Of a stretch of 64,000 bases of DNA, positions 4,454 to 58,306 are shown piece after piece. A program made the position numbers and the translations under genes. Every line of letters begins with the position of its first letter. The first letter of the stretch is position 1. The stretch covers positions 186,001-250,000 of the forward strand of contig NZ_CAOS01000008.1 in NCBI RefSeq assembly GCF_000315365.1, in the 5' to 3' direction. The notes under the pieces are model-generated. The model saw only the letters and a program-made list of their open reading frames with translations, did not search any database and had not been told where the DNA came from. This DNA is from Desulforamulus hydrothermalis Lam5 = DSM 18033 (GTDB taxonomy: Bacteria > Bacillota > Desulfotomaculia > Desulfotomaculales > Desulfotomaculaceae).

Positions 4454-5410
4454 TTACCGGTTGCTTTGCATACTTTCCTGCGGTCCTGTTTCCTTAAACA
4501 GGGCGGTAGATAAGTAACGTTCGCCGGTATCGGGCAGTAATACTACTACCGTTTTCCCTTGGCTGGCCGGCCGCTTCGCTACCTGCAAAGCCGCATACAG
4601 GGCGGCCCCGGCTGATATCCCCACCAGCATGCCCTCCTGGCGGGCTAACCGCCTGGCTGTTTCCATGGCCTGCTCGCCTGTCACTTGAAAAACCTCATCC
4701 ACCAATTCAAGATTTAATACCTGCGGTATGAACCCCGCCCCGATGCCCTGGATAGGGTGAGGCCCGGGGGAACCGCCGGAAAGCACCGGCGATTGGGCCG
4801 GTTCCACCGCCACTGCCTGTAAATCAGGTTTTTTCTCTTTAAGATAGCCGGCAACACCGGTAATGGTACCCCCTGTGCCAACGCCCGCCACAAAGATATC
4901 CACCTTACCCCCGGTATCTTCCCATATTTCTACCGCTGTATTTTCCACATGGGCCCGCGGGTTGGCCGGATTGGCAAACTGCTGCAACATAAAAGCATTA
5001 TCCAGGCCGGCCACCAGCTCTTCAGCCTTGGCAATGGCTCCGGACATGCCCTGTTGGCCGGGGGTGAGCAGCAACTCTGCCCCGTAGGCCTTCAAAAGGC
5101 TGCGCCGCTCCTCGCTCATGGTTTCCGGCATGGTTAAAATAAGGCGTATGCCCAGGGCAGCGCAAACCATGGCCAGGCCCACCCCGGTATTACCGCTGGT
5201 GGGTTCAACCAGCACACTTTCTTTGTTGATGATACCCCGCTGCAGGGCGTCCGCCACCATGGCATAGGCAATCCTGTCTTTTACGCTGCCGCCCGGGTTG
5301 AAATATTCCACCTTGGCCAACACTTCTGCTGCCAGGCCTTCGGTCAGGCGATTTAAGCGCACCAGCGGCGTTTTGCCAATGGTTTCTAAAATACTGTTAT
5401 AAACAGGCAT
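4454..5410 (-). CDS. cysK: Cysteine synthase (O-acetylserine sulfhydrylase)
   Basis: A 318-residue PLP enzyme of normal CysK length that makes L-cysteine from O-acetylserine and sulfide in the cytosol. Visible signatures are [12 protein letters not shown] near the N-terminus, NPGGSVKDR with the Schiff-base lysine at about K44, the substrate loop [12 protein letters not shown] at about residues 69-80, the phosphate-binding GTGGTITG and the GISAGAA segment. Downstream lies a shared terminator. It is transcribed alone, with a small ORF upstream at 5489-5716. A cysteine-specific T-box was not seen in the short gap upstream. CysM-type substrate variants cannot be ruled out, but the sequence looks like CysK. 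Confidence 0.93.
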
Positions 5411-5488
5411 AATCTTTCCTCCGCAAGATTTTTCTTATATCATAGAACAAAGCGGGAAAAATATACAGCACTTGGAAAACATACTGCT

Positions 5489-5716
5489 TTATTTCGTTGC
5501 CGCCGCCACAATTTCTGTGATTGCCTGCAGCATGGTTTGCAGGGCTTCCTGTATATTATCGTTTTTTAGATAACAAGGGATGGTAACCTGGCGGTCCGGA
5601 CCGCAGGCTGTGCCTAAAATAAAACCGTTGCCCAGCCTGACCAGGCTTATTCGCCAGTATTCCGTTTCCCCGGCAGCGTTTGTCAATGAGTGCAGGAAAT
5701 TTGAGCCGTACTGCAA
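5489..5716 (-). CDS. Hypothetical 75-residue protein
   Basis: Starts with TTG at 5716, eight bases after AAAGGAGG, and reads 75 residues including NAAGETEYWRISLVRLGNG. There is no signal peptide or membrane segment. The C-terminus (NDNIQEALQTMLQAITEIV) is probably helical. It lies directly upstream of cysK on the same strand with a 78-base gap, so cotranscription is possible. I do not recognise the family; the good ribosome site and the lack of a competing frame support it as real. Confidence 0.5.
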   Translation of the reverse strand: MQYGSNFLHSLTNAAGETEYWRISLVRLGNGFILGTACGPDRQVTIPCYLKNDNIQEALQTMLQAITEIVAAATK

Positions 5717-5983
5717 GACCGCGACCTCCTTTGGTACGATAGATTTCGTTCACAAAGGAGCATTTACCTTTGAAAAAATATTGCGAATATATCAGCGCCA
5801 AAGCTGTATCAGGAACTTTTTAGAGGTTTTATGATTAGCCACACTTGTCGAAATGCCGGTATCGCACTTGGGCGCCTAAAATAATATGGAAAATTTTTAG
5901 GCTGGCGTGAACATATTTATCTTTGTCAGAATATATAATAGGAATTATTGATATTTAGGAATGACTGATAAAGGAGTTTTGCT

Positions 5984-7318
5984 ATGAGCGAGCCCGGTTT
6001 GCCAATTCCGATTAATCCCAAAAGCAAGCGGCTGTATATCCCCACCAAACACAAATTTATTTTAGCCAATCTGACAGCTATTATGTGGTTTACCCTGTCC
6101 TGCTTTATCAGTTATCCCTGGGTATTGAGCCTGGCACAATTAGTGGGCAGTTGGGCCGGCTGGTTTATCGTTCTCTTTATTGCTTTAATACCGGGTTACT
6201 TAAACATGTTTTTGCTGGTCAGTTTGCTGATTGACCGGCCACCGCCTTTACAGACAGCCCGGGACTTGCCGCCTGTCAGCATCCTTATTGCCGCTTACAA
6301 TGAAGAAAAATCCATTTTAGAAACACTGCGTTCTCTCAGACAACAGAACTACCCCGGTATCATCAACATCATTGTTATTGATGACGGCTCGCTGGACCGT
6401 ACGAAAGAGCTGGTTTTAAATTGCGGCATGCCCAATGTTAAGTTAATTGAAGCAAATCACCAGGGTAAATCGGCGGCACTAAATAAAGGCTTACAATATG
6501 TTGCCGATGACTATGTAATAACCATCGATGCGGACACTTTTTTACATCCCCAGGCCATTACCCGCATTATGGCCCGCATGTTGGGCGATCCGGGTCATAC
6601 CGCTGCGGTGGCCGGCTGCGTGCTGGCTAAAAACTCCCGGGATACTTTTATGACCAGGCTGCAGGAATGGGATTATTTTTTGGCCATTTCTTCCGTTAAG
6701 CGCCAACAGGCCCTGTACCAGGGCACCCTGGTGGCCCAGGGGGCTTTTAGTGTATATAAAACCGCCGTAGTTAAAGAGGTGAGCGGCTGGCCCTCCTGCA
6801 TCGGGGAAGATATTGTGCTGACCTGGGCACTGATTAAAAAAGGTTACCGCATTGGCTATGAAGCAACTGCGGTAGGTTTTACAGAAGTACCTACCACCTT
6901 TATGGCTTTTGCCCGCCAGCGCAGACGCTGGGCCAGGGGTATGATTGAGGGATTTAAAGCTCATATTGACTTGATTTATAAACGGTTTTCTCCCACTGCC
7001 ATTCTGGTTGGCATTGACCTGTTATATCCCCTGCTGGACTTAACTTATACCTTTGTATATATCCCCGGCATTATTTTAGCCCTGTTTGGTTATTATTGGA
7101 TTGTGGGTCCCATGACGCTGGCGGTTATTCCTTTAACCTTGTATATAAACTATACTATGTACAAGTACCAGCGCAGCGTATTTCAAGAGCTGAACCTGAA
7201 AATCAGGCAAAACAAGCTGGGTTTTGTGGTATACACTGTTTGCTATCAGATTTTAATGTCACCGGTTTGCGTGTGGGGTTATTTTGAAGAATTTTTTGGT
7301 ATTGCCAAACGCTGGTAA
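5984..7318 (+). CDS. Membrane glycosyltransferase family 2 (poly-GlcNAc/cellulose-synthase-like)
   Basis: A 444-residue processive-type GT2 enzyme. Two N-terminal membrane segments (about residues 28-50 and 55-80) precede the catalytic domain: VSILIAAYNEEKS, VIDDGSLDRT, the metal-binding TIDADTF, the catalytic GEDIVLTW and the QRRRWARG motif that binds the growing chain. Further hydrophobic segments from about residue 340 to the end form the membrane channel. The architecture matches IcaA/PgaA-like poly-N-acetylglucosamine synthases and related exopolysaccharide enzymes, which add sugars from UDP donors and export the polymer. No deacetylase or partner subunit is adjacent, so the sugar is unknown. 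ATG at 5984 follows AAAGGAG; a terminator follows the gene. Confidence 0.85.
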   Translation: MSEPGLPIPINPKSKRLYIPTKHKFILANLTAIMWFTLSCFISYPWVLSLAQLVGSWAGWFIVLFIALIPGYLNMFLLVSLLIDRPPPLQTARDLPPVSILIAAYNEEKSILETLRSLRQQNYPGIINIIVIDDGSLDRTKELVLNCGMPNVKLIEANHQGKSAALNKGLQYVADDYVITIDADTFLHPQAITRIMARMLGDPGHTAAVAGCVLAKNSRDTFMTRLQEWDYFLAISSVKRQQALYQGTLVAQGAFSVYKTAVVKEVSGWPSCIGEDIVLTWALIKKGYRIGYEATAVGFTEVPTTFMAFARQRRRWARGMIEGFKAHIDLIYKRFSPTAILVGIDLLYPLLDLTYTFVYIPGIILALFGYYWIVGPMTLAVIPLTLYINYTMYKYQRSVFQELNLKIRQNKLGFVVYTVCYQILMSPVCVWGYFEEFFGIAKRW

Positions 7319-7344
7319 AAGGCCCTCAAAAAGGGCCTTTTTTA
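7317..7344 (+). terminator. Rho-independent terminator after the glycosyltransferase
   Basis: AAAAGGCCCT and AGGGCCTTTTTT pair around a short A-rich loop immediately at the stop codon, followed by a T-run. Confidence 0.85.
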
Positions 7345-7435
7345 TACTTTCGGTACAACTATACGTTATGATGACCTGTATATTTATAACTAAATGTTAT
7401 TTGTAATATAATAAAATATTATGATAAAATAGTTT

Positions 7436-7531
7436 GGGGAGAATGGGGAAGGTCCCCCCACGGGCTGCAAACCCGCTGGCCTGCCTGTGATCCAGGCGGG
7501 AGTCCGGTTCGATTCCGACTTCTCCCCTCCA
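7436..7531 (+). tRNA. Class II tRNA with GCA (Cys) anticodon and tRNASec-like architecture
   Basis: The acceptor arm has 8 pairs (GGGGAGAA with TTCTCCCC), followed by U73 and an encoded CCA at 7529-7531. The D arm is compact (GGGGA, AGG, TCCCC). The anticodon loop CTGCAAA is at 7465-7471, giving anticodon GCA. A long variable arm forms a 7-bp stem (CCTGCCT at 7480-7486 with AGGCGGG at 7494-7500). The T loop is the canonical TTCGATT; its stem needs one bulged C or two mismatches. The 8-bp acceptor, short D loop and long variable arm are selenocysteine-tRNA traits, while GCA plus U73 are cysteine identity elements (tRNASec normally has UCA and G73). Normal bacterial tRNA-Cys is class I with a short variable loop. 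It lies 12 bases before tRNA-Lys. Confidence 0.8.
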
Positions 7532-7543
7532 AATACAAGTTAC

Positions 7544-7619
7544 GGGTCATTAGCTCAATTGGTAGAGCAGGCGACTCTTAATCGTCAGGTTGGGGGTTCG
7601 ATTCCCTCATGGCCCACCA
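7544..7619 (+). tRNA. tRNA-Lys (CTT)
   Basis: A standard 76-base cloverleaf: acceptor GGGTCAT/ATGGCCC (one G-U pair), D arm TAGCTCAATTGGTAGAGCA, anticodon loop CTCTTAA (anticodon CTT), T loop GTTCGATTCC and an encoded CCA. A loose hairpin rich in GCCGGC follows, possibly its terminator. It is probably cotranscribed with the unusual tRNA just upstream. Confidence 0.93.
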
Positions 7620-7747
7620 CAGCCGGCTTGCAGCCGGCTTTTCGTATGAGTTGGATACTAAGTCCGTTAAGTGGTTAACAAGTGTAACAATGCCTTTATC
7701 AGTGAATATTATATGATGGAAAAATATTCACAATAAGGGTGATAAAT

Positions 7748-9217
7748 ATGGATAAACGCTGCCCCCCTTGCGCAACGGTTGAGGTTTTAAGTATACAGAA
7801 CTGTATCAGCACTCCCGTCCCATCGCACAGGCCGGAGGTTTGTTCCAGATGTTTTAATTTGCTGCAAAATCCTGGATTTGAAGCAGGTCTAACAAGGTGG
7901 CAGACCAGTGATAACGTATCGGTTTCCGATGCCTCTCCCTTCGAAGGCACACAACAGGCCATTATGCAAGAAGGTGTAGCGCATTTGTTTCAAGACGTTT
8001 CATTGTCTGGTCCGGCAAATTGTCCCTTGTTTTTTAGTGCTAATATTTCTACTAACAACGCTGTGGCCAATAACCTAACCGTGGAAGTGTTATGGCTGGA
8101 CGAAAACCGTAACGCTATGGCCAATGGACTTAGAGTGTTTTTACCCGGTTCCGCGCTAGGTATTACTTACTTTGACATTACTGACCGCCCTCCTATAGGC
8201 ACTGCCTTTGCCAGACTGCTCTTTAGTAAAACAGAAGGTACAGAGAATTCTTTCATTGTAATTGATCAGGTTATCCTGGCCCCGGTAAAAAGCAGCAATT
8301 TATTGGTGAACCCTGGCTTCGAGTCGGGATTAAACGGGTGGCATACCACCGGCTTTAGCCTTGACTTTACCGACCCCTTAGAAGGTCTTGTGAATACCGC
8401 AACCAACGTGAACGGTACAGTTTACCAGGATGTGCCTTTAACAGGTCAACCGTCCAATGCTTCCTTTTTACTTAGTTTTGCAGCCCTTACTACTCCGTTC
8501 TCCCAGGGGCCTACCGCCGCACTGACCGCTCAGGTCCTCTGGCTGGATGCAGCAAACAATATCCTTGGCACGCCGGGACTGGAAATTAACATTCCTAACA
8601 ACACCTTGAAAAACCAGTTTGGCTATTTGACCTACCTGGATCTAACAAAGCCGGCTCCTGCAGGTGCTGTAAAAGCGCGCATTTTGTTTACCGCGGACGT
8701 AGAACAAGGTTTTACCTTGAGACTGGATCATGTAATTTTTGCCCGGGCCGCTACTCAAAACTTAATCATAAATCCCAGTTTCGAAGATGGCTTGAACGGG
8801 TGGCAAAACGTCAACACCTCGGTCGTTAGTTTATCTGATGTTTATGAGGGGAATTATACAGCTGCTGTGGATACGGTCGGCGGTGTGCTTTATCAGGACG
8901 TTCCCCTGGCCAATGCGGCGGGCCATTGCTTTTTATTTAACACCGGTTTTAGATTTCGAGGCGTAGGCTCACAGGCCTTAACCAGTCAGGTAATCATTAA
9001 CATACTTTGGCTGGATCAGAACGGCAGGGAGATCGGTTTGGGAGCCAGTCTCATTATACCTCCCAATGATAACCTGCGGGATAAATGGCTGGTTTACACA
9101 GCCATTACAGAACCTGCCCCCCCTGATACAGTGTCTGCCAGGGTGCAATTTACCAAAGCCCCCAGCGCAAGAAGCGAGCTGGATATCGATAAGGTGGTGC
9201 TGGGGCGTTTGGTTTAA
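7748..9217 (+). CDS. Three-repeat surface-type protein with carbohydrate-binding-like (NPGFE...W) domains
   Basis: A 489-residue protein starting at ATG 7748 behind AAGGGTGAT. A Cys-rich N-terminus of about 35 residues (RCPPCATVEV, CSRCFNLL) is followed by three homologous units of about 145-150 residues. Each begins with an NPGFE/NPSFE..GL..W motif and contains a FQDV/YQDV strand, a VLWLD or ILWLD strand and an R(L/I)LF/VQF..-(I)D(Q/H/K)V strand. This is the look of jelly-roll carbohydrate-binding-like modules. There is no signal peptide, sortase motif or SLH domain. In Firmicutes, leaderless proteins of this kind can be spore-surface components; that role is an inference from type only. A hairpin repeat (9225-9258) directly follows and marks the edge of the defence island. 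Confidence 0.6.
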   Translation: MDKRCPPCATVEVLSIQNCISTPVPSHRPEVCSRCFNLLQNPGFEAGLTRWQTSDNVSVSDASPFEGTQQAIMQEGVAHLFQDVSLSGPANCPLFFSANISTNNAVANNLTVEVLWLDENRNAMANGLRVFLPGSALGITYFDITDRPPIGTAFARLLFSKTEGTENSFIVIDQVILAPVKSSNLLVNPGFESGLNGWHTTGFSLDFTDPLEGLVNTATNVNGTVYQDVPLTGQPSNASFLLSFAALTTPFSQGPTAALTAQVLWLDAANNILGTPGLEINIPNNTLKNQFGYLTYLDLTKPAPAGAVKARILFTADVEQGFTLRLDHVIFARAATQNLIINPSFEDGLNGWQNVNTSVVSLSDVYEGNYTAAVDTVGGVLYQDVPLANAAGHCFLFNTGFRFRGVGSQALTSQVIINILWLDQNGREIGLGASLIIPPNDNLRDKWLVYTAITEPAPPDTVSARVQFTKAPSARSELDIDKVVLGRLV

Positions 9218-9224
9218 GTAAAAA

Positions 9225-9280
9225 ATGACCACATTAGCCCTAAAGCTAATGTGGTCATTTTAATGTACAATGTGGTCAAA
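9225..9280. repeat. Left flanking hairpin repeat of the defence island
   Basis: ATGACCACATTAGC (9225-9238) and GCTAATGTGGTCAT (9245-9258) form a perfect 14-bp stem with a 6-base loop. A third, partial copy of the arm (AATGTGGTCA) follows at about 9269-9278. A diverged copy with the same order of parts lies at 21066-21122 on the far side of the DISARM genes in the same orientation. It may also terminate the surface-protein gene ending at 9217. Confidence 0.75.
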
Positions 9281-9763
9281 ATCTATAATAATCCCTCTGC
9301 CAGCTTTTTCTCCAGTATCTGCGAGGTCCTTACCCCATCATGCCACCATCGCCTATATAGCCTACACCGGCAGCTAACGTTACCTAGCAAGGCCGAGCGG
9401 AAGCGATTCAGGTAAAATTCACACCTCGTCCGGTGATTGTTTTAACAATTAGTTATTCAGGTGAGGATTTTTTACCTGGCTAACCAAAAACTTTACTTGA
9501 CAACTTTGAAAAATCACCCTCATGACTGAAGCTATAAAAACCGGGCCTACTATTTAAACTTACTTAAGGGGGAAAATCTTTGATATACTTCAAGCAGCCT
9601 TAATTATCCTTTTCTCCCTGTCTTTACTGTTGTCTCGTCAACTTGGCATAGCAGGTTTGATTGACAGGGTGGTCAACTTTTATTCTTCAAATACATGCAA
9701 TAAAGGATTTTGTTTATTAATCAAGAACTTCTCTTTATTTATACATTCAGGGGGTTCATTTAG
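9281..9763. other. Intergenic region upstream of the DISARM methyltransferase
   Basis: This stretch has no clear gene. An imperfect long inverted repeat at 9409-9478 (CAGGTAAAATTC with GGATTTTTTACCTG, plus CACCT/AGGTG) could form a leader hairpin. A short minus-strand reading at about 9293-9349 (RWWHDGVRTSQILEKKLAE, then stop) looks like the tail of a lost gene but is too short to assign. The ribosome site AGGGGG at 9749-9754 serves the GTG start at 9764. Confidence 0.45.
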
Positions 9764-11005
9764 GTGGCAATATGTAAACAGAATTATTACAAAAATTCAC
9801 TGATTATAGAGGATATTAGAACAAATACTCCTTATTACCACCCGGGTGTCTTTGATTTTCCTAACTTGCCCTACGATCTACCAATGATTAGCCTTTTTAC
9901 CGGTGCGGGGGGATTAGACCTTGGACTGGAACGAGCGGGATTTTCAACAAGAGCCTATGTTGAAAACAATAAATATTGTATTGAGACCATTAAAATTAAT
10001 CGAAAAGAATGGCGTTTGGTAGGAAATGGCGATATTACTAAAACAAACTCAAAAGAGATTTTGAAAACCGCCGGTCTTAAAATAGGCGAGGCAGCTTTAC
10101 TGGCAGGGGGGGCCCCATGCCAACCGTTCAGCAGTCTGGGTAAAAATGAAGGGGACAGTGTTTCTAACGGTAAATTATATAAATATTTCATCCAAATGGT
10201 TAAAGAAATACAGCCCGTTACTTTTATCTTTGAAAATGTACGAGGGATGGTTCAAAATCATAAAAAAGTAATTGAATTTATGGAACAGGAATTCGGTAAA
10301 TCCGGATACGGAATTTCCATTGCTTTGATCTGTGCCGCTGACTACGGGGTTCCGCAAAAGAGATACCGAGTATTTATTATCGGAAGGAGAGACGGTAAAA
10401 AACCGGGGTTTCCGTTTCCTACTCATGCCGAAAATCCTGAAAGCAGTTTAAAATATTTTAATACTCTTTGTGCTTTAAAAGGAGTACCGTTTCCATACCA
10501 AAAATTAAAAAAATGGGTTACCGTTGGAGAAGTTTTCAGCAGACTGACAAAGGAGCATTATAACAGAAAAGATAATTTTTATGCTCAACTTTCTCCCAAA
10601 ATAGTTGAAATGATCAGTTATATTAAGCCAAAAACCAAAATGTGTTGGGCTGACTTGCCCGATGATTTGAAATTTAATTGTTGGAAAAAAGGAAAGTTCC
10701 AAGGAAGAGATAACTTTAGCCGTCTTCAATATAATGAGCCTTCCGTTACCATCCGTACCGGAGCAATTTATCCTGCAAAAGGTAAATATATCCACCCCGA
10801 ATTAAATCGTGGATTAAGTACAATTGAAATGGCAGCTCTGCAATCCTTCCCGTTAAATCCGGGTAATGAAGGTTGGCACTTTTATGGTGGTATATTAAAT
10901 GTTGCCCGTCAAATCGGAAATGCTGTACCTCCTCTGTTAGCAGAAGCCATAGGTCATGCCTTGAAGCAACAGGTGCTGGAAATAATTAACGGAGCAGGGT
11001 GCTAA
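9764..11005 (+). CDS. drmMII: DISARM-associated C5-cytosine DNA methyltransferase (DrmMII-like)
   Basis: A 413-residue m5C methyltransferase with all core motifs: SAM-binding LFTGAGGLDLG (residues about 44-54), GGAPCQPFSS with the catalytic Cys at about 119, FENVRGM (about 157-162), QKRYRVFIIGRR, a target-recognition region, and RQIGNAVPP near the C-terminus. It transfers a methyl group to cytosine in a specific duplex DNA motif that cannot be deduced here. In class 2 DISARM this enzyme marks self DNA. Start is GTG at 9764, nine bases after AGGGGG. It is the only plus-strand gene of the island and runs tail-to-tail into vsr with a 4-base overlap of stop codons, so it has its own promoter. The island is visibly more AT-rich than its surroundings. 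Confidence 0.85.
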   Translation: MAICKQNYYKNSLIIEDIRTNTPYYHPGVFDFPNLPYDLPMISLFTGAGGLDLGLERAGFSTRAYVENNKYCIETIKINRKEWRLVGNGDITKTNSKEILKTAGLKIGEAALLAGGAPCQPFSSLGKNEGDSVSNGKLYKYFIQMVKEIQPVTFIFENVRGMVQNHKKVIEFMEQEFGKSGYGISIALICAADYGVPQKRYRVFIIGRRDGKKPGFPFPTHAENPESSLKYFNTLCALKGVPFPYQKLKKWVTVGEVFSRLTKEHYNRKDNFYAQLSPKIVEMISYIKPKTKMCWADLPDDLKFNCWKKGKFQGRDNFSRLQYNEPSVTIRTGAIYPAKGKYIHPELNRGLSTIEMAALQSFPLNPGNEGWHFYGGILNVARQIGNAVPPLLAEAIGHALKQQVLEIINGAGC

Positions 11006-11409
11006 TCCCCTCCGTTAATTGTTTGCTTGATATCATTTACCACACGTTCCAATTCCTTTTTAATTTCACAACCCCAGTAACGTTTAACCTTCCATCCCAA
11101 CTGTTCCAACTTTTGCGTAACCTTCATATCGTTCAAACGATTCTTTTTTATTTTGGTAACCCAGAAAACCCTGTTTTGCTCAGGTATTTGTCCGCATTTA
11201 GGACACCCGTGCCAAAAACAACCGTCACAAAACACTGCAATTTTTTTACCCGGAAAGATAATGTCCGGCCGTCCCGGTAATTTATTTGACAATCTATATC
11301 TTAATCCTTGTTGCCATAAAGCCTTACGTAATCTAATTTCCAAATCGGTATTTTTGTTTTTTACGGCGGCCATGTTTTTACTTCTTTCTTCTTTGCTCTT
11401 CGTATCCAT
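11002..11409 (-). CDS. vsr: Very short patch repair endonuclease (Vsr)
   Basis: A 135-residue protein with family marks NMAAVKNKNTDLEIRLRKAL, YRLSNKLPGRPDIIFPGKKIAVFCDGCFWHGC and a C-terminal W..KR.W. The family nicks DNA 5' of the T in T:G mismatches produced by deamination of 5-methylcytosine, starting short-patch repair. Its presence fits the adjacent m5C methyltransferase, whose stop overlaps its own by 4 bases from the opposite strand. It is the last gene of the minus-strand DISARM operon, 49 bases after drmB. Start ATG at 11409 follows AAGGTGG; an upstream GTG at 11418 lies inside that ribosome site. The D and H residues of FPGKKIAVFCDGCFWHGC are the expected active-site and zinc region. 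Confidence 0.9.
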   Translation of the reverse strand: MDTKSKEERSKNMAAVKNKNTDLEIRLRKALWQQGLRYRLSNKLPGRPDIIFPGKKIAVFCDGCFWHGCPKCGQIPEQNRVFWVTKIKKNRLNDMKVTQKLEQLGWKVKRYWGCEIKKELERVVNDIKQTINGGD

Positions 11410-11458
11410 AAAGACCACCTTAAATATTTATACAGCGTGATTTCTTCTTATAGCAATC

Positions 11459-13288
11459 TCAAATAAACAAGTTATTAAGTTTTGACAGAAATCCCATTTC
11501 CGGTTGATCAGGAAGTCCAACCACCAATGCTCTGTCCAGTAACCGGTTAAACTCTTCGCAACATGTTTCAGGCAACAATGCACAGGCATGACAGGCCGCA
11601 AGATTTAAAGACCCCAACCCTTGTCCTGTACTTTCAAAACACAGTGGGTCTGATGAACACCATGAAGCAGCGTTGACCGCCTTTTTAATGACAGAACCGA
11701 GAAATTCCGGTTTGCCTTGTCTGACCAGTCCCCCCATTGTTCCCTCCGAATCACCGCTGGCCGTATAAACTAATATACCGGCCATTAACGGCTGATCATC
11801 TGTCTCATTACAATAAATTCTTTCACGTAAAGAAGCACTGCCGTACCCGCATTCAAAGCTTAATTGTCTGATTAATAAATGAGCAAAAGTATGCAAAAAG
11901 ACAAATGTTGCCGTAATTTTTCGCGGTGGACGCTTTAATTCCGTCGCCATATGATAATATCTGTCGTTTAATATTTTAACTCTTTCTTCAATTTGAGGCA
12001 TCTGTGCCCAGCGGGACAGTTCATCGGTATTAAACATAATAAATATTCCCTCACCGTAAACTTCCACCGCCGGTAACCAGTCAATTTTTTTCTTAAAATT
12101 CTTTAAGTAAACCGCATAGCCAGTTTTTTCGTCATCTTCTTCTGCCGGGTGGGCGTCATTGCGATCCAGCGGCGTAAGCCTGCTGAAAGCATACAATGCC
12201 CTAACCTCTCTTAACCTGTGAACCTGGACAACCTTTTCGATTCCCGGGATTTTATAGTCTTTTCCGTCCCTGATCTGAATTTTAAAATTTTTTGATTCCG
12301 GACTTCCTTCGTCAATGAATCCCTGAAAAGCCTTATATTCATCGTATCGGTAATTGATCTCAACAGACTCAACCACTGTTAGAGGATCGTCATTAAGTAA
12401 CTTTTCAGCAGTCTTTTTTACCTCATTAAAATCACGGTTTATCAGTTTAGCAATCCTCTTATAAAGAACCTCCTTAAATGATTCCTCTTCCAACCCTCCG
12501 TCCTGGGATGACAAGACATCCCACTCACTGGTTCCGCAAATGTCCGAAATCAGGTTGTCGGAATAGGGAGGTATAACTATTGAGTTGATTATCAGAGGAA
12601 AGTAAACATTTGAGGCACCACGTTGAACGGTTTTCGGCCTGGAATCACATACCTCCTTCTCATCAACCCAAGGTTTATATCCGCTACATTGTGTATGAAT
12701 CCCCTCTTTAAATGCCTCATCCATTGTGTAAAAATTACCGCACTTTGTACAGCTGATTTTAATACCGGATAACCCTGAAGCGCTTCCGAATGTTTCGATC
12801 TTTAAGTGATGTTTTGAGAAACATCCTCCCTTACGATGTGCCCATTCTACCCAAGGAAAATCGTCAACATGCCCCTTCTCACATACAACAATAAATCTGC
12901 TGGGTACCAATTTAGCATGGCAAATATCACACCTGGGTATTTTGAATTCCTTTTTATACTTTTCCGTGTATCTCACGGTCCAATCATCAATATGCCTCAA
13001 TAAACGACAATTAGGACAAAAAAGCCATTTCGGAAATCTGACAAAGGGTATCCCGTCTTTATATTCCTGACCGGAAGGAGGCATTTTGAAATATTTTACA
13101 CCTAACCGAGCTTGCAATCGTTGGTCATAAATTTTGGGCCCTGCATTGACATGCCAAAATTCAGTTCCGGCCGGCATTAATGACTCCTCCGGCAAATCAA
13201 CGATACTTCCCACTCCGAAGGGACCAATAAATTGAGAACGCCTCAGAACCTCATACCTCATCCTCGGGTTATAACTGTCCTTACTCAC
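11459..13288 (-). CDS. drmB: DISARM protein DrmB (DUF1998)
   Basis: A 609-residue protein. The N-terminal half carries several zinc-ribbon-like pairs (CPNC at about 90, CDIC at about 119, CEKGHVDDFPW at about 137, CTKC at about 180). The C-terminal DUF1998 region includes HTFAHLLIRQLS, YGSASLRERIY, LVYTASGDSEGTMGGL and the Cys-rich CSSDPLCFES ... CHACALLPETCCEEFN. DrmB is a core DISARM component and forms a complex with the DrmA helicase that blocks incoming phage DNA. Its ATG overlaps the drmA stop by 4 bases (13285-13288), the translational coupling usual for this pair. The assignment rests on DUF1998 plus the DrmA neighbour and is firm. Confidence 0.9.
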   Translation of the reverse strand: MSKDSYNPRMRYEVLRRSQFIGPFGVGSIVDLPEESLMPAGTEFWHVNAGPKIYDQRLQARLGVKYFKMPPSGQEYKDGIPFVRFPKWLFCPNCRLLRHIDDWTVRYTEKYKKEFKIPRCDICHAKLVPSRFIVVCEKGHVDDFPWVEWAHRKGGCFSKHHLKIETFGSASGLSGIKISCTKCGNFYTMDEAFKEGIHTQCSGYKPWVDEKEVCDSRPKTVQRGASNVYFPLIINSIVIPPYSDNLISDICGTSEWDVLSSQDGGLEEESFKEVLYKRIAKLINRDFNEVKKTAEKLLNDDPLTVVESVEINYRYDEYKAFQGFIDEGSPESKNFKIQIRDGKDYKIPGIEKVVQVHRLREVRALYAFSRLTPLDRNDAHPAEEDDEKTGYAVYLKNFKKKIDWLPAVEVYGEGIFIMFNTDELSRWAQMPQIEERVKILNDRYYHMATELKRPPRKITATFVFLHTFAHLLIRQLSFECGYGSASLRERIYCNETDDQPLMAGILVYTASGDSEGTMGGLVRQGKPEFLGSVIKKAVNAASWCSSDPLCFESTGQGLGSLNLAACHACALLPETCCEEFNRLLDRALVVGLPDQPEMGFLSKLNNLFI

Positions 13289-16200
13289 TTTTTCCCCTCC
13301 GATAAATCTTTTATGAAAACGTTACAAACCGCATCAACATTTCTCATTGATTGTAAGGTGGGCCAATGCTTACCCCTCTTACCTGCCTGGTATAGCAAAT
13401 GTGGTTCCTTCTGTGACCCATAGGTCAAATTGCTTTCTGCACGGGCGATTTCAGCCCAGAATTCTATCTTTTTTATTAAATCTGACTCCGTGTCGGACTT
13501 TTCTTCGGCCATTACACTCTCCACCCTGGCAAGAATATAATCCGTCACCTTGTTTAAGTCGGGTATGTCCGGTGTAAATTCTCCGGCTTGGTTATCTTTA
13601 TTTAATCCGATCAGATGTCGTACCAAGGTAACAAGAACCGCATGCAAAGCCCTGTCTCTGGCCGGACCTGAAAAAGGCGTTACACTTGTCGGTTCAACAA
13701 ACTGATAGAATGCCTCATGATATGAAGTAAATCTTTCATAATGGGATCTGTCTCTGGGTCTGGCACCGTCATAAATCGTAAATATCAAGCCCGGATACTT
13801 TCTGCCCACCCTGCTTGTGGCCTGAATATATTCAGATGTGGTTTTCGGTTGACTGATTACCGTCATCATGCCCAGTCTGTCAATATCAACACCTACGGAA
13901 ATCATATTCGTTGCCAGTAATACGTTAACAGATTTTTTATCAGGATATTTTACTTTAAGCCGCTCAAGTATTTCAGGTATTTCTTCAGCACTTTTCCTGC
14001 TTGTCAACTCATCCGCTTTGTAAAACAACCTGCGTTTGGTTTTTCTTCGCATGGCAATTCTACGAACCTGATCTTTTATATCATCCTCAACCAATGTGGA
14101 ACATTTCCCCAATTCCCTTATGGTATTAAAATATCCTACCAAAGTCCAATATTTATCCTTTACTTCGTCGGAATAATCCAATTCCTCTAAATACTGTAAT
14201 TGGGCTGACATTAATCTTACCTGGGTAGTCGTCTGGGTTTTTCCGGCAGCTAAAATACCCGCATATAGTCGACCGGGTTTCTCCTCCAAGGAAGCCTGTC
14301 TGGCAAAAAATGAATCTTCCGCATCCAGACCGGGCGGCGGAAACTGCCTGACATCCCTGTTGTACAACGCCTTAACCTGATCACCGGCCCTCCTGATTGT
14401 AGCCGTAGAAGCAATAATTTTAGGTCTTATTCCCTTCTGAGAACAGAGTGCATCCAAAGCCGTCTCATATAAACCTACTATTGTTCCTAACGGTCCGGAG
14501 ATTAAATGCAATTCGTCCTGTATAATCAGTTCAGGAGATAAGTTATTATTTCCTGAATTTAATGCAAAGATATTAGAGATCTCTTTTTTCCAAGGCATCA
14601 TGGCAAATTTATCCACAGTAGCAAACAATAACGTAGGAGAATCCCTGTAAATATCATCATCAACAACAGATATGGGTAATTCATCCCTGAAAGCACAGGT
14701 TTTCTCCGTACATCTCAGGGCAAACCTTTTGGGGCGGTCCTTTCTTATATATCCCCATTCTCCTCTGCCCTTTTCTTTAATCATTTTTGTTCCACACCAT
14801 GGACAACTAAGTACCTGAAACGGATTTTTTTCATCCGTTCCTATTGCAAGTTTGTCCAGTTGATAAAATGCATCCTCCAGCGTATTGGGTGTTGAAGCAC
14901 TCCCGATCCATAAACCGATGGAAATGCGTCCTTCTCCTAATTCATTAGGATTCTCTTTTCTGATTAATTCACATGCACAAATTAAAGTGCCGGCTCTTTG
15001 AAATTGCTGAGCTGTCAGCAACCGTAAGGTATAGCGCATGATAATTGCAGTACCGTTTCCTATGACAGGATTTTTAAGTCGCCTTAAGAATATAGTAAAG
15101 GCCGATATCCCTAAGTAAGCTTCCGTTTTTCCGCCACCGGTCGGAAACCAGATTAAATCCACCAGTTCCCGGTCGTAATCCCCGGGGTTATCAATCCCTG
15201 CAATATTAAGAAGTATAAAAGCCAATTGAAACGGACGCCAAGATGCTTCTTGATCAGGTATTTTTTGATAATTCGGCCATTTTACAGGTTTGTCGTCCGG
15301 ATATCTGGTCTCCTCTTGTAATATGGTATGTGCTCTTTGCATCAACATGGCACGATTGGCCAACTGAAATGCTTTATATACTTTATCATTCTCTTCCAAA
15401 ACTTTTATTCCTTTAAAAATTCTTAACCCGGATTCTTCACAAAGTTTTATATGATCCTCGGCGATAGCTCTATATTCCTCCGGCAGAGTATTTTTTATTT
15501 TATTTAAGCCTTTTACCCACTCGGTATAGGCACCGGCAAAAAGCCTTAACTTTTCGATTATTTGGTTTTTGGAAAGGTCAGAAATATCACTAAGATTCTT
15601 CATAACCAAGATATCTTTTACATGATTTAATTCACTGACATCAAATTTAACTTGCGGCACTTCAGTATAAGGTATGATTTCCGTATAGATTCTTACAGCT
15701 TTATCGTTCTCTTTTTGCCAATTTACCGCACAACCATGACCGACCGCAAAGGTCTTTTTATTTCTGTAAAGTAAGGATAAAGATTTTTCTTCGGGGTCAT
15801 CTGAAAATTTATTGTAAGAACGGTAATCCAAAAACTCAGTATTTACGTCAACCGGTTCAACGGAAAAACCCACCTGAAAATATGCCTTTTCCGCATTTTT
15901 CTCTTTTTTCGCAATGTATTCGTTAATTAAAGATATTGTAAACAGGGTATGGTTGTAATCAGGGCTTGGACGCCGAATGCATACTATACTCAGTTTTTCA
16001 CCAACTTTTTCCGACCACCGTGAAATTGATTTACCACTGTCAGTGGGAACAACTATCGTACATTTTTCCTCAGACAGGGGAACCCTGACCCAACCGTTAT
16101 GAATTAAGTTGTATACTTGATATACAGCCGCTTTATATCCCTCATGGTCATAAAGCCTCAGGAGAGAATCCCTGTCCTCTTTTTCTATTTTAACTTTTGG

Positions 16201-16662
16201 TTTGATTTTATTTTCTTCGTAAGTAATACACCGTTGAAAAACTGACGATAGCTGTATCCCTTCCGGCAAAGGTTCAACTGGAACTTCACAGTCATCTAAA
16301 GAAACTCTTCTATAACCGGCCGCTTTTACAGTTACTTTTAACTCAGGATTTATACCGTTTACATAAAAGCTCATTCCTAGGGAAGACGGATAATATTGGT
16401 TAGCTGTATTTACAGAAATATCCAAATACTCGTTTTCATCAGAAACCGCAGCTTCATTATGACCGGTGTCATTATGTTCATCGTCGAAATTGACCTTCTG
16501 TTTCTGAGGGTACAATATCCCAACAGAGTATCTCTGTAACGGACTTTCAGTAATAATCTCACGTTCTTTGGGCATGTTTTTACCTTCTGACCCGGGTCCC
16601 ATCATTTCCATAATCACAGCGTTTAATAGATCATGTCTCAGTTTCTTATATTCATCCGTCAT
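13285..16662 (-). CDS. drmA: DISARM helicase DrmA
   Basis: A 1125-residue superfamily 2 helicase. Motifs: Walker A LIWFPTGGGKTEA at about residues 505-517, Walker B/motif II IIQDELHLISGPLG (DELH) at about 714, ASTATIRRAGDQV (motif III), ATNMISVGVDIDRLGMM at about 920 and the arginine-rich YIQATSRVGRKYPG (motif VI). A pair of CxxC clusters (CPWCGTKM, CTEKTC) lies between the RecA lobes. In DISARM, DrmA with DrmB forms the sensor/translocase core. The ATG at 16662 abuts the stop of the upstream NERD-helicase gene without a gap, and the stop overlaps drmB, so the genes form one tightly coupled operon. AT-rich codon use differs from the flanking chromosome. Confidence 0.9.
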   Translation of the reverse strand: MTDEYKKLRHDLLNAVIMEMMGPGSEGKNMPKEREIITESPLQRYSVGILYPQKQKVNFDDEHNDTGHNEAAVSDENEYLDISVNTANQYYPSSLGMSFYVNGINPELKVTVKAAGYRRVSLDDCEVPVEPLPEGIQLSSVFQRCITYEENKIKPKVKIEKEDRDSLLRLYDHEGYKAAVYQVYNLIHNGWVRVPLSEEKCTIVVPTDSGKSISRWSEKVGEKLSIVCIRRPSPDYNHTLFTISLINEYIAKKEKNAEKAYFQVGFSVEPVDVNTEFLDYRSYNKFSDDPEEKSLSLLYRNKKTFAVGHGCAVNWQKENDKAVRIYTEIIPYTEVPQVKFDVSELNHVKDILVMKNLSDISDLSKNQIIEKLRLFAGAYTEWVKGLNKIKNTLPEEYRAIAEDHIKLCEESGLRIFKGIKVLEENDKVYKAFQLANRAMLMQRAHTILQEETRYPDDKPVKWPNYQKIPDQEASWRPFQLAFILLNIAGIDNPGDYDRELVDLIWFPTGGGKTEAYLGISAFTIFLRRLKNPVIGNGTAIIMRYTLRLLTAQQFQRAGTLICACELIRKENPNELGEGRISIGLWIGSASTPNTLEDAFYQLDKLAIGTDEKNPFQVLSCPWCGTKMIKEKGRGEWGYIRKDRPKRFALRCTEKTCAFRDELPISVVDDDIYRDSPTLLFATVDKFAMMPWKKEISNIFALNSGNNNLSPELIIQDELHLISGPLGTIVGLYETALDALCSQKGIRPKIIASTATIRRAGDQVKALYNRDVRQFPPPGLDAEDSFFARQASLEEKPGRLYAGILAAGKTQTTTQVRLMSAQLQYLEELDYSDEVKDKYWTLVGYFNTIRELGKCSTLVEDDIKDQVRRIAMRRKTKRRLFYKADELTSRKSAEEIPEILERLKVKYPDKKSVNVLLATNMISVGVDIDRLGMMTVISQPKTTSEYIQATSRVGRKYPGLIFTIYDGARPRDRSHYERFTSYHEAFYQFVEPTSVTPFSGPARDRALHAVLVTLVRHLIGLNKDNQAGEFTPDIPDLNKVTDYILARVESVMAEEKSDTESDLIKKIEFWAEIARAESNLTYGSQKEPHLLYQAGKRGKHWPTLQSMRNVDAVCNVFIKDLSEGKK

Positions 16663-18399
16663 TTATCCTCTCCCCTTTGTTAAATACTCAATATTCTTTT
16701 CAAGGTATCTTTGTTTAAGGTTACTGTTTAGCAGAAGAATTAACAGTTGTCCGGCACGGCTCATTGCTACATAATTAACGGTATTGGCTTTGTCTCCGTC
16801 TATATCTTTAACACCGCAATAAATTATTACCTTGTTTTCCATTCCTTTAAACCCTTGAGCCGTACTGTATGTTATTTTGTTCTCGGGTAATTCCCCGGCA
16901 TTTTCATGCGTAACTTTCTCAAAATCATAAAAGGTTTTCAAGTCAATAATCATATCTTCAAACCCCTTCTCTGGATATAGCAGCGTGATAGCACCGGGCT
17001 TTACACCTTCGGAAAGAAGTTTTTTAATTATATCCACGAGGATATTTATTTGATCCCTTTCATCGATGAACCAATAATATTGAACCTTTTCCCCGCCCTC
17101 TGTCCGGGTGTTTTCTACGTTAAATCCCGAAACCACCGAAGTTTGGACAGCTATTTGTTTAGTATTTCGACAATTAATGTCCAACCGATAATCTGCCGCT
17201 CCAAACTCCGTAAGCTGTTTTACCAATGTTCGATCAAAGTTTTTATACAATTCTCCTTGATTATTTGAATCATAAAAAATCGCCCATTCCCCTTTTTCCA
17301 GTCCGTCTTTTAAAATGTAGTCCAGGGCCTGGAAATACTCAGAACATAACAGATCCTGTCCTTCATCAATAACCAAACAATCATAAGTCTCCTGAATTTC
17401 ATTTAATGCCCGGATAAAAAATTGAGGATATATTTTTTTGTAAAGCGTATCCCCGTTAAATTGATCGTGGACTTGTAAAAACTGATCCTGTAAACTTGTT
17501 GATAATATTATGTTATAAAAATATTTATGGACAGAATTTGCCGTTATGAGGTGATGGTTTTCCATTCGGTTTGTTTTATAACGTAATTTTCCGCCTAATA
17601 TTTTGTTATAGCAAAGCAGTAAAACCCTTTTATTGTTAAGTGCGGTTCTCCGTACTTTTTCCAAGGCCAAAAGCGTTTTACCGGTACCGGCGGTCCCTCT
17701 GAAAAATACTCTTTTGTTATTCTCCATTCTGTCTAACGCTTTATATTGCTCCTCGGTAAGCTGGATTATTTGTTTCTCTAAACCCTCCAGCTTTTCATTC
17801 AACGGTATGATCAGTTCAAAATCCTTTCTTAGATAACCCGCTAAATAATCTATCTCGGAGTTTGTAAACTTTCTTTTACCGGGCAGTTTATCATTCCAAT
17901 AACCAATCAACCTTTTAAGATATTTCCCAAACGGTTTTAATCTGTCAGAAATATCATATACAATTTGATTATCCCATTCAGGTGATTCAACACTAAATTC
18001 AATGTCCGGAAACAAAACACCGTATCCGAATAAACAATCGTTAAAAGAGTTGCCAAATTCCCGGTTTATGTTTTCCCTTAATGAATATAAAGCCGATGCT
18101 ACCTGTTTGAAAGGGCTTTCTTTTTTTTTCGTTATGAAGCCATACCTGTCGGTAAAAAACCAAAACCCGGCATCACGTTTAACTCGACCCCCTTTGACCT
18201 CAAGGCAAAACAGACCTCCCGAACCGAGTAAAATAAAATCAATTTCTCCTTCAGCTTTAAACATATGCCTGGCTATTCCCAGGGAATGAAGACAAACCCA
18301 ACCGTCAAGACCGGCTTCGTTTTTAATTAATTGAAATATTTTTTTTTCGGCTACACTTTTAATATTTGCATGTGTATAGGGAGGAATCATTCTTACCAC
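16663..18399 (-). CDS. NERD nuclease-domain / UvrD-like helicase in the DISARM operon
   Basis: A 578-residue fusion. Residues about 10-115 form a NERD-type nuclease-related domain with GEIDFILLGSGGLFCLEVKGGRV, whose D..EVK pattern matches the PD-(D/E)XK-like core. A superfamily 1 helicase follows: Walker A FFRGTAGTGKTLLALEK at about 233, VIDEGQDLL at about 345, INCRNTKQ, and the C-terminal STAQGFKGMENKVII ... YVAMSRAGQLL. Start is GTG at 18399 behind GAGGTGA. It lies 21 bases after the DrmE-like gene and directly abuts drmA. No DrmC (phospholipase-D-type) gene is visible, so this protein may supply nuclease activity; that is an inference. Similar NERD-helicases occur in other defence islands. 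Confidence 0.8.
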   Translation of the reverse strand: MVRMIPPYTHANIKSVAEKKIFQLIKNEAGLDGWVCLHSLGIARHMFKAEGEIDFILLGSGGLFCLEVKGGRVKRDAGFWFFTDRYGFITKKKESPFKQVASALYSLRENINREFGNSFNDCLFGYGVLFPDIEFSVESPEWDNQIVYDISDRLKPFGKYLKRLIGYWNDKLPGKRKFTNSEIDYLAGYLRKDFELIIPLNEKLEGLEKQIIQLTEEQYKALDRMENNKRVFFRGTAGTGKTLLALEKVRRTALNNKRVLLLCYNKILGGKLRYKTNRMENHHLITANSVHKYFYNIILSTSLQDQFLQVHDQFNGDTLYKKIYPQFFIRALNEIQETYDCLVIDEGQDLLCSEYFQALDYILKDGLEKGEWAIFYDSNNQGELYKNFDRTLVKQLTEFGAADYRLDINCRNTKQIAVQTSVVSGFNVENTRTEGGEKVQYYWFIDERDQINILVDIIKKLLSEGVKPGAITLLYPEKGFEDMIIDLKTFYDFEKVTHENAGELPENKITYSTAQGFKGMENKVIIYCGVKDIDGDKANTVNYVAMSRAGQLLILLLNSNLKQRYLEKNIEYLTKGRG

Positions 18400-18420
18400 A
18401 AATCGTCACCTCAGCCACGG

Positions 18421-20919
18421 TTATTTGTCTAGCAGCCTGTTAGTTCTGCCGACCGGGACAATAAACTTTTCTTTGGAAATCCTCTTTACCGTTACCGTTT
18501 GGACATATTTGGTAAGGTCATCTGTAATTTTTTGTAACATATCATCTTCCTGATTGATTGAATTTGCCATTAATGAAGATATCACCGACCTGGCTAAATA
18601 TCTTCCAAGCTGTACATGTAAAGCCCTGATTTTTTTACATGCAGTTATTACTTCTTCCGTTTTAACCAATAACTCCTGATGACCGGTCATCAATGTAATT
18701 GCCCTGATTGCATCATCTTCGGGGCCGATACAACTTTCATCATTAATCCATGATTTAATTGTTGCAGTTACCCTGGATACACCGTGTTTTTTAAGAAGTT
18801 TTTGAATATTTTCGTAACTATACCGGGTTTTTGCTTTAAATTCTTGTAATGCGGTTCTCCATAATCCTGATAATAAAACCAATTCTTTAATATGGGGATT
18901 TGATTCTTCAACAGTCTTAACTAATTTTTCAAAAATATCTTCGCTTGAGTCTTTAATAAAAATAAGGTTGTCATTGGTATTTAGCTCTTTTACTTTTTTC
19001 TTAATGACATTTTCCTCTTCTTCACTTAGACACCTACAATTATATCCATCCGTTAAAAACGCTACATATTCTTCTTCAAATTCAACAAAATATGCTTCAG
19101 TAGTCGGGTTTACCTCACCGACTTGTAATTTAGAAGCGGTATTGCTTATATATCCCAAAGAATTCAAAGCGTTGCCAATATATGTATCCATGTCATCTTC
19201 TTCCGCTTGTAGTTCGTGTTTTACATTTTGTCCTGTTAAATTGCAGGAGACTTTTTTTAATTTATTGTTTAATCTTTCTTGGCTTGCTCTAAACCATTTT
19301 TCCTCGAACGGATAGAGTATTAGATACTGCTCATTAGATGACGGATTAAGAAAAATTCTCGTATGCTTCTCTCCAAACCAACCGGAAAAAATAGCCTTAT
19401 TAAAAAAGCTTTTAGTAGTTTTAAATTCGTTTAAAGATATTATTTGAGGTCGACAGTTGAAGCAGTTTGCTTTTAACCATCTTCTTAAAATTTCTTTTTG
19501 GTTATCCTTATTGACAACAATACAATCATTATAATTTAATGTTTTAACCAAATCAGTAAAGGTTCTGTGCTTCGAATGATATTTTGTGTAAAAATTTATA
19601 AGACTCTTTAATCCTTCTATAACAAACCCAAAATCATTAAAGGTTAGCTTATTCACCGCCATAAACATTTCTGTCTTTAATTCTTCCAATTGATTAACTG
19701 TGGTTTGACAAAAAGCATATTGTTCTTCGCTCAGTAATAAAGGCATTGTCCTTAAATATGTTAATAGAGAATAACTCTTACTGATAAAGGGTACTTTAAA
19801 ATCACTTTCAAAATGTGATTTCCTGATTTTTTCCAAACGATGTTTAATATCCTCAATAATGTTTTCTTCTAATGCTTGTGTATTAACAATATGGCATTTT
19901 TGATTTACCAAAGCTTTCAATACCCTACGACTCCTGGTAAAATGATTATTACTGGGAGACGGCTCTGCAAGTGTTAATTTTCCAAGTTCCTCCGGTGTCC
20001 ATGAATGAATCCGAAAATTAAGGGATAAAAAATATCCTATATCATCAAAATCAATATCACTTATATCTCCTAGTACAATGATATTATTTAATCTTTTCTG
20101 TAATTCCCTGAGTGAAGTAAAATGACCTTTCAATTTTTGAGTTTTATAAATAACAACCGATTTAATATCAGGGTCATTTTGAATCATTTCTATGGCATTT
20201 CCCATACTCGCTGTAAAACAAACCACAGGCATTCTTTGTAAAGGATCAGAACCTATTCTTTCGAATTCATCCTTTTTATTATAATAACCGGCCGGCAAAA
20301 TATTGGTAAAAGGAATATTACCAAAACAAATATTAGTTAGGTTATTACAGACAGCATGTTTGTCACAAACAATAAGAGTTTTTGACTTAACTACAGGAGG
20401 TAATTCTGTTTCATCCAAATTCAATAACTCACATAGATAATCTTTAGCTTTGGCAACCTTGGGATTTGGGCGATGTATATATTTATTCACCCTTTTAGCT
20501 TTACCTTCATATTTATTTAACCTCCAAGCCCTTTCAAACGGGATGTAGATAACAGTATCTTTAAATCTGATTTTTAATTTTTGTTCTGATATTCCTAAAA
20601 ATTCTCCTAAGCAGCCGTCCAGTTTAACTTTATCACCTGTCTTTAGATATTCAGTTACATTTCTTGAAGCTTCCTTTATATCTTTTATATCTTTTTTTAA
20701 CATAATAAGAGGAACCACAACTGATGCTATCAACATAAGGGAAACACCGGTTGAATGTAATATTAATTGATAAACCGGTTCATTAAACAATGCAAATCTA
20801 GAAAATAAATAAGAATTTGCCTTGTCATATTCATCAAATTTATGCTTATATCTGTCAAATGTTAAATCAAGTTTTTCTAAAAAAGCCAATTCATTAAATA
20901 CCTCATGTCCTGGGAACAT
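18421..20919 (-). CDS. drmE: DrmE-like large protein, first gene of the DISARM operon
   Basis: An 832-residue protein starting at ATG 20919. A predicted membrane segment (about residues 52-73, SLMLIASVVVPLIML) follows a helical N-terminus, then a small beta domain (GDKVKLDGCLGEFLG ... IYIPFERAWRL), an alpha/beta region with KTLIVCDKH and SVVIYKTQKLKGHF resembling a nucleotide-binding or helicase-like fold without a Walker A motif, and a long helical C-terminus. Class 2 DISARM is defined by drmE beside drmA, drmB and drmMII. Size, position and lack of a recognised catalytic motif fit DrmE, whose biochemical role is unknown. The name rests mainly on context. It begins the minus-strand operon, so the operon promoter should lie in 20920-21065. 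Confidence 0.6.
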   Translation of the reverse strand: MFPGHEVFNELAFLEKLDLTFDRYKHKFDEYDKANSYLFSRFALFNEPVYQLILHSTGVSLMLIASVVVPLIMLKKDIKDIKEASRNVTEYLKTGDKVKLDGCLGEFLGISEQKLKIRFKDTVIYIPFERAWRLNKYEGKAKRVNKYIHRPNPKVAKAKDYLCELLNLDETELPPVVKSKTLIVCDKHAVCNNLTNICFGNIPFTNILPAGYYNKKDEFERIGSDPLQRMPVVCFTASMGNAIEMIQNDPDIKSVVIYKTQKLKGHFTSLRELQKRLNNIIVLGDISDIDFDDIGYFLSLNFRIHSWTPEELGKLTLAEPSPSNNHFTRSRRVLKALVNQKCHIVNTQALEENIIEDIKHRLEKIRKSHFESDFKVPFISKSYSLLTYLRTMPLLLSEEQYAFCQTTVNQLEELKTEMFMAVNKLTFNDFGFVIEGLKSLINFYTKYHSKHRTFTDLVKTLNYNDCIVVNKDNQKEILRRWLKANCFNCRPQIISLNEFKTTKSFFNKAIFSGWFGEKHTRIFLNPSSNEQYLILYPFEEKWFRASQERLNNKLKKVSCNLTGQNVKHELQAEEDDMDTYIGNALNSLGYISNTASKLQVGEVNPTTEAYFVEFEEEYVAFLTDGYNCRCLSEEEENVIKKKVKELNTNDNLIFIKDSSEDIFEKLVKTVEESNPHIKELVLLSGLWRTALQEFKAKTRYSYENIQKLLKKHGVSRVTATIKSWINDESCIGPEDDAIRAITLMTGHQELLVKTEEVITACKKIRALHVQLGRYLARSVISSLMANSINQEDDMLQKITDDLTKYVQTVTVKRISKEKFIVPVGRTNRLLDK

Positions 20920-21065
20920 TGTATCTCCCCTTATTAAAAAATTGCATCAGTTAAAATCAAATTGTTAAATATTGTAAATTTTTTGTTTTTATATTGTTTT
21001 ATTCTTTTATTTTACAATAAATCCTTTTTATTACTTTATTTCATTTTGCATCAGATAAAAAAATA
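20920..21065 (-). promoter_or_regulatory. AT-rich upstream region of the DISARM operon
   Basis: About 146 very AT-rich bases precede the DrmE-like ATG; the minus strand has a candidate ribosome site (AAGGGGAGA) just upstream of the start. Several TTGnnn and TAtAAT-like words occur, but none is distinctive enough to name a single promoter. No operator palindrome was recognised. Confidence 0.4.
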
Positions 21066-21122
21066 ATGACCACATAGCCTTTATGAGGCCAATGTGGTCA
21101 TATTCATGCCCAATATGGTTAC
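21066..21122. repeat. Right flanking hairpin repeat of the defence island
   Basis: ATGACCACAT (21066-21075) pairs with ATGTGGTCAT (21092-21101) around an inner GCCT/AGGC stem, and a third partial arm (AATATGGTTA) follows. The order and orientation match the copy at 9225-9280, with substitutions in the loop and third arm. It also lies just after groEL on that gene's strand and may act as its terminator. Confidence 0.75.
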
Positions 21123-21147
21123 AATACGCTCCTATACAAATCCTGCC

Positions 21148-58285: not shown

Positions 58286-58306
58286 CAATACCCCCCTTGG
58301 GTTGAA

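Follow-up and report, generated by a model that had tools for sequence, protein, structure and literature searches.

A recurrent DISARM-type locus with a NERD nuclease–helicase and without drmC in Desulforamulus hydrothermalis

A NERD nuclease–helicase in a DISARM-type operon

The genome of Desulforamulus hydrothermalis Lam5 = DSM 18033 (completeness 99.94%) carries, within the 64,000-nucleotide window analysed here (NZ_CAOS01000008.1, positions 186,001–250,000 of the forward strand), a DISARM-type island whose drmA–drmB operon includes a gene for a NERD nuclease fused to a superfamily 1 (SF1) helicase, hereafter NERD-helicase. We consider that the island probably belongs to a recurrent variant of this anti-phage system, built of NERD-helicase, drmA and drmB, with drmE in some loci, together with a 5-methylcytosine (5mC) DNA methyltransferase and Vsr, and that the NERD-helicase probably supplies its nuclease. 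The island consists of the following genes:

18421–20919, minus strand: drmE-family gene, 832 amino acids, first gene of the operon, ribosome-binding site AAGGGGAGATACAATG; DrmE_C domain at residues 608–781 (Pfam, 62 bits)
16663–18399, minus strand: NERD nuclease–SF1 (UvrD-like) helicase, 578 amino acids, 21 bases downstream of drmE and directly adjoining drmA
13285–16662, minus strand: drmA, superfamily 2 (SF2)/YprA-type helicase, 1125 amino acids (NF038325, PADLOC DrmA)
11459–13288, minus strand: drmB, DUF1998/MZB protein, 609 amino acids, overlapping drmA by 4 bases (NF038324, PADLOC DrmB)
11002–11418, minus strand: vsr, T:G mismatch endonuclease, 138 amino acids, 40 bases after drmB (TIGR00632)
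9764–11005, plus strand: 5mC DNA methyltransferase (Dcm/DrmMII-like), 413 amino acids (TIGR00675, PADLOC)

The five open reading frames of the initial annotation are all intact, with the boundaries it gave them, and each gene assignment is backed by family searches. Its tight minus-strand operon of four genes was reproduced with the same junctions (21-base gap, zero gap and 4-base overlap), so that the NERD-helicase indeed lies exactly between the DrmE-like gene and drmA; vsr, however, had been overlooked, and the operon, transcribed in the order drmE, NERD-helicase, drmA, drmB and vsr, probably comprises five genes. It starts with a drmE that has a clear ribosome-binding site and is located behind the groEL terminator hairpin, and ends with vsr, which converges tail to tail with the methyltransferase gene in a 4-base overlap. 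This layout is not a matter of chance, because genes for NERD-helicases directly adjoin drmA, drmB or both in many genomes that are unrelated.

The core of DISARM, namely a DrmA helicase and a separate DUF1998 DrmB adjoining drmA, is present. DrmA scores 1034 bits with NF038325 DISARM_DrmAS (cut-off 950) and 812 bits with PADLOC DrmA, and the DELH box noted previously in this large SF2 helicase is found in the motif IIQDELHLISG. DrmB scores 493 bits with NF038324 DrmB_fam (cut-off 240) and 282 bits with PADLOC DrmB. Vsr matches TIGR00632 (134.9 bits, cut-off 97.85) and the methyltransferase TIGR00675 dcm (174 bits, cut-off 100.65); in PADLOC the generic MTase_II model (287 bits) ranks above DrmMII (205 bits) for the latter.

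The NERD-helicase is predicted to be an active nuclease

A profile check of the 578-residue protein returned Pfam NERD at 43.4 bits, as anticipated. Its N-terminal NERD domain of the PD-(D/E)xK type is fused to an SF1 helicase, and the expected catalytic residues are intact. Residues E18, E52, D54, E67 and K69, which make up the expected PD-(D/E)xK site, are invariant across 22 divergent homologues, and so are the cores of helicase motifs I (GxAGxGK) and II (DExQD). The AlphaFold model is confident (mean pLDDT 87). In the PDB it is matched by SF1 helicases, and the best match, SLFN11, covers mainly the helicase core. The natural reading of these motifs is that the protein acts as a DNA-degrading translocase.

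By analogy with class 1 DISARM, in which DrmAB is known to load on 5'-overhang single strands (PMC9142583), DrmAB of the island may load on free 5'-overhang or single-stranded phage DNA, and DrmE may help recognition or assembly. The NERD-helicase would then translocate on the exposed strand and degrade it by means of its PD-(D/E)xK nuclease, thereby taking the effector role assigned to DrmC elsewhere. Judging from their families alone, the methyltransferase would mark self DNA, and Vsr would repair the T:G mismatches left by deamination of 5mC.

The NERD-helicase might, on the other hand, be an accessory or regulatory part of DISARM, involved in remodelling, repair of self DNA or RNA cleavage, while translocation by DrmAB alone blocks the phage. 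Indeed, Bravo et al. propose that DrmAB loading and translocation may themselves block replication, DrmC being dispensable (PMC9142583); moreover, some DISARM-like loci have no nuclease gene at all (L113, L114, L029), and the best fold match of the NERD-helicase is SLFN11. Nevertheless, invariance of the PD-(D/E)xK residues in divergent homologues implies that cleavage itself is probably selected, and we regard a purely accessory role as improbable.

The DrmE-family protein

The 832-residue protein is a DrmE relative, as had been supposed: NF038316 DrmE_fam matches it over the full length with 591.7 bits (cut-off 80). It falls far below the canonical DISARM DrmE model, however (NF038323, 60.9 bits against a cut-off of 250), and the plain 'class 2' label of the initial annotation is therefore too strong. 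DrmE is a fast-diverging protein, and that of the window lacks the Walker A motif. None of the genomes sampled from the phylum of the host has a canonical DrmE above the cut-off, which leaves no canonical class 2 locus for direct comparison.

Where drmE is split, the partner of about 510 amino acids matches the C-terminal half of DrmE (hhalign 99.1%, E 1e-18); its neighbour of about 340 amino acids does not match the N-terminal half (probability 0.6%). Two proteins of 828 and 791 amino acids preceding drmA in loci L033 and L034 were considered as DrmE, but they align poorly and are actually UvrD/Rep helicases. The predicted structure of the window DrmE is of too low confidence for use (pLDDT 63, pTM 0.34), and its SF2-helicase-like Foldseek matches (XPB, Hef, RIG-I-like; TM ≤0.22 to the query) were not relied on.

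Recurrence across phyla

Among 26 NERD-helicase loci counted, 25 contain DrmA and/or DrmB, and they represent at least six other phyla (six named ones) in addition to that of the window. The sole exception, L032 (G153), has drmE and NERD-helicase at one contig end and drmA–drmB at the opposite one, leaving adjacency of NERD-helicase and drmA undemonstrated there. In a scan of GTDB genomes outside the phylum, 14 of 29 NERD-helicase loci are associated with DrmA and/or DrmB, and they come from Chloroflexota, Acidobacteriota, Pseudomonadota, Actinomycetota and Verrucomicrobiota. NERD-helicase DISARM loci are also found on plasmids of Rhodococcus opacus, Azospirillum, Deinococcus gobiensis (Deinococcota), Rhizobium and Shinella. 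No relatives of the NERD-helicase were found in viral contigs, and no DrmA in phage records.

Three main layouts can be distinguished. In the first, drmE–NERD-helicase–drmA–drmB, the order of the window is repeated in L030 and L031 and, with drmE split or shortened, in L054, L056, L060, L064 and L121. In the second, a UvrD-type helicase precedes drmA, drmB and NERD-helicase (L033, L034, L049, L051, L075, L122, L124 and L138; a contig break leaves just the drmB–NERD-helicase end in L035). The third, mostly from Gammaproteobacteria, comprises drmA, drmB, an SF1 helicase of about 395 amino acids, a protein of about 470–530 amino acids and NERD-helicase (L052, L058, L059, L061 and L062). Finally, in L057 and L123 NERD-helicase directly precedes drmA, with no recognised DrmE. 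The survey of other DISARM loci suggested by the initial annotation thus places the gene in the same operon slot elsewhere and marks recognisable subtypes. Similarity of the 832-residue protein to DrmE, a recurring gene order and an operon without a drmC homologue, on which that annotation had staked its proposal, were all found.

Several neighbours of these operons deserve mention. In L059 (8601–10004), the ~470–530-residue protein of the third layout matches the 2CompART ADP-ribosyltransferase domain below threshold (25.4 bits, cut-off 27), and its equivalents precede NERD-helicase in L052, L058, L061 and L062. The UvrD–drmA–drmB–NERD-helicase operon of L034 (G080) is preceded by genes (9865–15655) encoding an Hsp70-like protein, a coiled-coil protein and a 1016-residue protein without Pfam match, and genes of similar size occupy the preceding position in L115. 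Many DISARM-type loci have a Vsr gene nearby (8 of 26 with NERD-helicase, 3 of 9 with DrmC), usually accompanied by a 5mC methyltransferase; the Vsr-bearing loci are the window, L029, L051, L054, L056, L060, L075, L108, L110, L113, L121, L124 and L133. In L140 (12075–16035), on a plasmid of Oscillatoria nigro-viridis, class 1 DISARM is directly followed by plasmid-borne dnaN, dnaX and holA.

DrmC and NERD-helicase mark different DrmA branches

As previously noted, drmC is missing from the operon. It is missing from the genome as well, in which neither DrmC_I nor the Pfam families PLDc_2 and PLDc have a match, although Pfam could miss a divergent phospholipase D (PLD) protein; the same search recovers PLDc_2 in 12 and PLDc in 11 of 14 control genomes. 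Furthermore, no NERD-helicase locus contains a DrmC-like gene. Weak DrmC-profile matches in L030 and L031 turned out to be type IV restriction enzymes of the PLD–ResIII kind, encoded beyond the operon.

Co-occurrence counts, drawn from one phylum sample and plasmids and biased because the NERD-helicase itself served as the query that retrieved many of its loci, give a similar picture. In the own-phylum sample of 398 genomes, 18 have DrmA at E ≤ 1e-60; NERD-helicase is found with DISARM genes in seven of these (G000, G009, G033, G080, G153, G209 and G383), a DrmC-like gene in four (G361, G348, G325 and, as a 151-residue partial protein, G344), and both in none. Similarly, among 53 plasmid records with DrmA, nine have NERD-helicase, 18 have DrmC and none has both, for which the chance probability is 0.016 assuming independent records, which these are not.

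The divergence of the NERD-helicase is coupled to that of DrmA: their distance matrices correlate over 24 loci with a Mantel r of 0.84, unmatched in 5000 permutations. On a DrmA tree of 49 rows, made with a quick method and subject to the same search bias, the NERD-helicase label changes 9 times (mean of shuffles 16.6; 0 of 500 as low), and all nine DrmC rows fall into one group (SH-aLRT 96) holding no NERD-helicase row. On the NERD-helicase tree, the DISARM-linked copies require 6 label changes, compared with an expectation of 17.2 under shuffling, and none of 500 shuffles was as low.

Since NERD-helicase and DrmC mark different DrmA branches, the proposal that the former replaces the latter holds in the sense of an alternative nuclease between lineages rather than of a demonstrated swap within this operon, and the NERD-helicase may or may not do the job of DrmC. 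It is possible, though we would stop short of calling it probable, that DISARM has at least two nuclease lineages, the DrmC (PLD) branch and a broad undescribed branch with NERD–SF1 helicase effectors, the latter co-inherited with DrmA and divided into subtypes with DrmE, UvrD or helicase–ART-like partners.

DrmC is often missing from DISARM, and recruitment of other nucleases, including PLD nucleases for loci lacking drmC, has been proposed (PMC9142583). The island could accordingly be an ordinary class 2 DISARM that lost drmC and obtains the missing nuclease in trans from a PLD protein of the chromosome. The absence of PLDc and PLDc_2 leaves this proposal without a candidate here and contradicts it for this host, unless the protein is too divergent for Pfam; in addition, the DrmE of the window is not of the canonical class 2 type, and DrmA proteins accompanied by DrmC form a separate group in the tree. 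We therefore consider such borrowing very unlikely.

A further alternative is that the NERD-helicase works independently, as a single-gene anti-phage nuclease of the Nhi-like or DRT-associated type that only shares an island with a nuclease-free DISARM. Its best PADLOC model is indeed the reverse-transcriptase-associated RTasNERD-Hel (152.8 bits), with weaker Nhi and AbiO matches, and Nhi is known as a stand-alone nuclease–helicase (PMC12904381). However, the gene sits inside the operon, 21 and 0 bases from its neighbours, recurs with drmAB across phyla, diverges in step with DrmA and clusters by DISARM linkage on its own tree. An independent nuclease is thus rather unlikely, albeit less so than a merely accessory role.

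Several points weigh against a DISARM variant with a NERD-helicase effector. Its anti-phage action and DNA cleavage are predictions from sequence. The NERD-helicase gene can stand alone, as homologues away from DISARM demonstrate (L036–L046 and L048 in the own phylum; L063 and L066, for example, among the genome_contigs loci), and its position varies among layouts. DrmA–DrmB loci with neither DrmC nor NERD-helicase exist (L029, L113, L114 and L127), and a nuclease gene beside drmAB is therefore not universal. L030 and L031 have a separate PLD-containing type IV restriction enzyme nearby. Moreover, DrmC was reported to be dispensable in the systems tested (PMC9142583), and DISARM may do without a nuclease altogether.

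Relationship to known systems

The island shares with class 2 DISARM (drmMII, drmE, drmA, drmB, drmC) the side-by-side presence of DrmA, DrmB, a DrmE-family protein and a 5mC methyltransferase, but it lacks drmC, its DrmE belongs to subfamily NF038316 and not NF038323, it has NERD-helicase and Vsr, and its methyltransferase gene is convergent with the operon. With class 1 (drmD, drmMI, drmA, drmB, drmC) it has only the DrmA–DrmB core in common: DrmD, the PglX-type methyltransferase and DrmC are absent, and DrmA lies on another branch. The NERD nuclease–SF1 helicase fusion is shared with Nhi and the reverse-transcriptase-associated NERD-helicase of DRT, yet the island copy is embedded in a DISARM operon instead of acting alone, and no reverse transcriptase partner, which defines DRT, is found among the island genes. 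TALON likewise combines a YprA-family helicase and a NERD-type nuclease in one operon (PMC12458937). Its helicase, however, is ARMADA-like and accompanied by TPR-CSD and TBP genes, neither of which occurs in the island, whereas here DrmA and DrmB are separate genes and it is an SF1 helicase that carries the NERD domain.

A full-text literature search for DISARM with NERD, with most subscription papers, and supplements, outside its reach, found no description of the association; one paper places NERD nucleases in TALON, and another lists NERD for Mokosh and Nhi-like systems. Given this reach, and since Bell et al. refer to numerous DISARM-like classes that are uncharacterized, prior notice in some table is possible. 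With its recurrence across phyla, the locus looks like a widespread DISARM variant for which our search found no description. If DISARM does have at least two nuclease lineages, it would amount to a modular helicase machine whose effectors are interchangeable. The NERD-helicase could be added to defence-system catalogues as a DISARM marker. An operon with a different, motif-intact nuclease–helicase in a genome free of PLDc and PLDc_2 also makes the question of DNA destruction by DISARM testable by single-gene or point mutations.

Origin of the island

Horizontal acquisition is the best explanation for the island. Its GC content is 30–42%, compared with about 49% around it, and the stretch 5411–21147 is absent from three genomes of the same genus, in which groEL is followed, after 0.3–0.9 kb or a single other gene, by a homologue of the window gene at 4454–5410. 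One of the three, G383, has a NERD-helicase DISARM of the second layout elsewhere in its genome. The absent region exceeds the DISARM island: tRNA-Cys, tRNA-Lys and genes for a family 2 glycosyltransferase and a protein with a carbohydrate-binding domain lie there too. Among the ORFs of the island, none was recognised as an integrase gene. A second dip in GC (about 40%), at 55853–58411 of the window, corresponds to an 852-residue S-layer-homology protein, not a defence gene.

Each end of the island has a hairpin:

9225–9260, no strand assigned: perfect 17-base hairpin, low end of the island
21060–21105, minus strand: groEL terminator hairpin, high end of the island, arms TGACCACAT...ATGTGGTCA

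These arms are common to both hairpins, and the hairpin 9-mer, read directly or as its complement, is found five times in the 64 kb, always at the two island ends. A related hairpin follows groEL in G383 as well, suggesting that insertion of the island may have involved copying of the groEL terminator.

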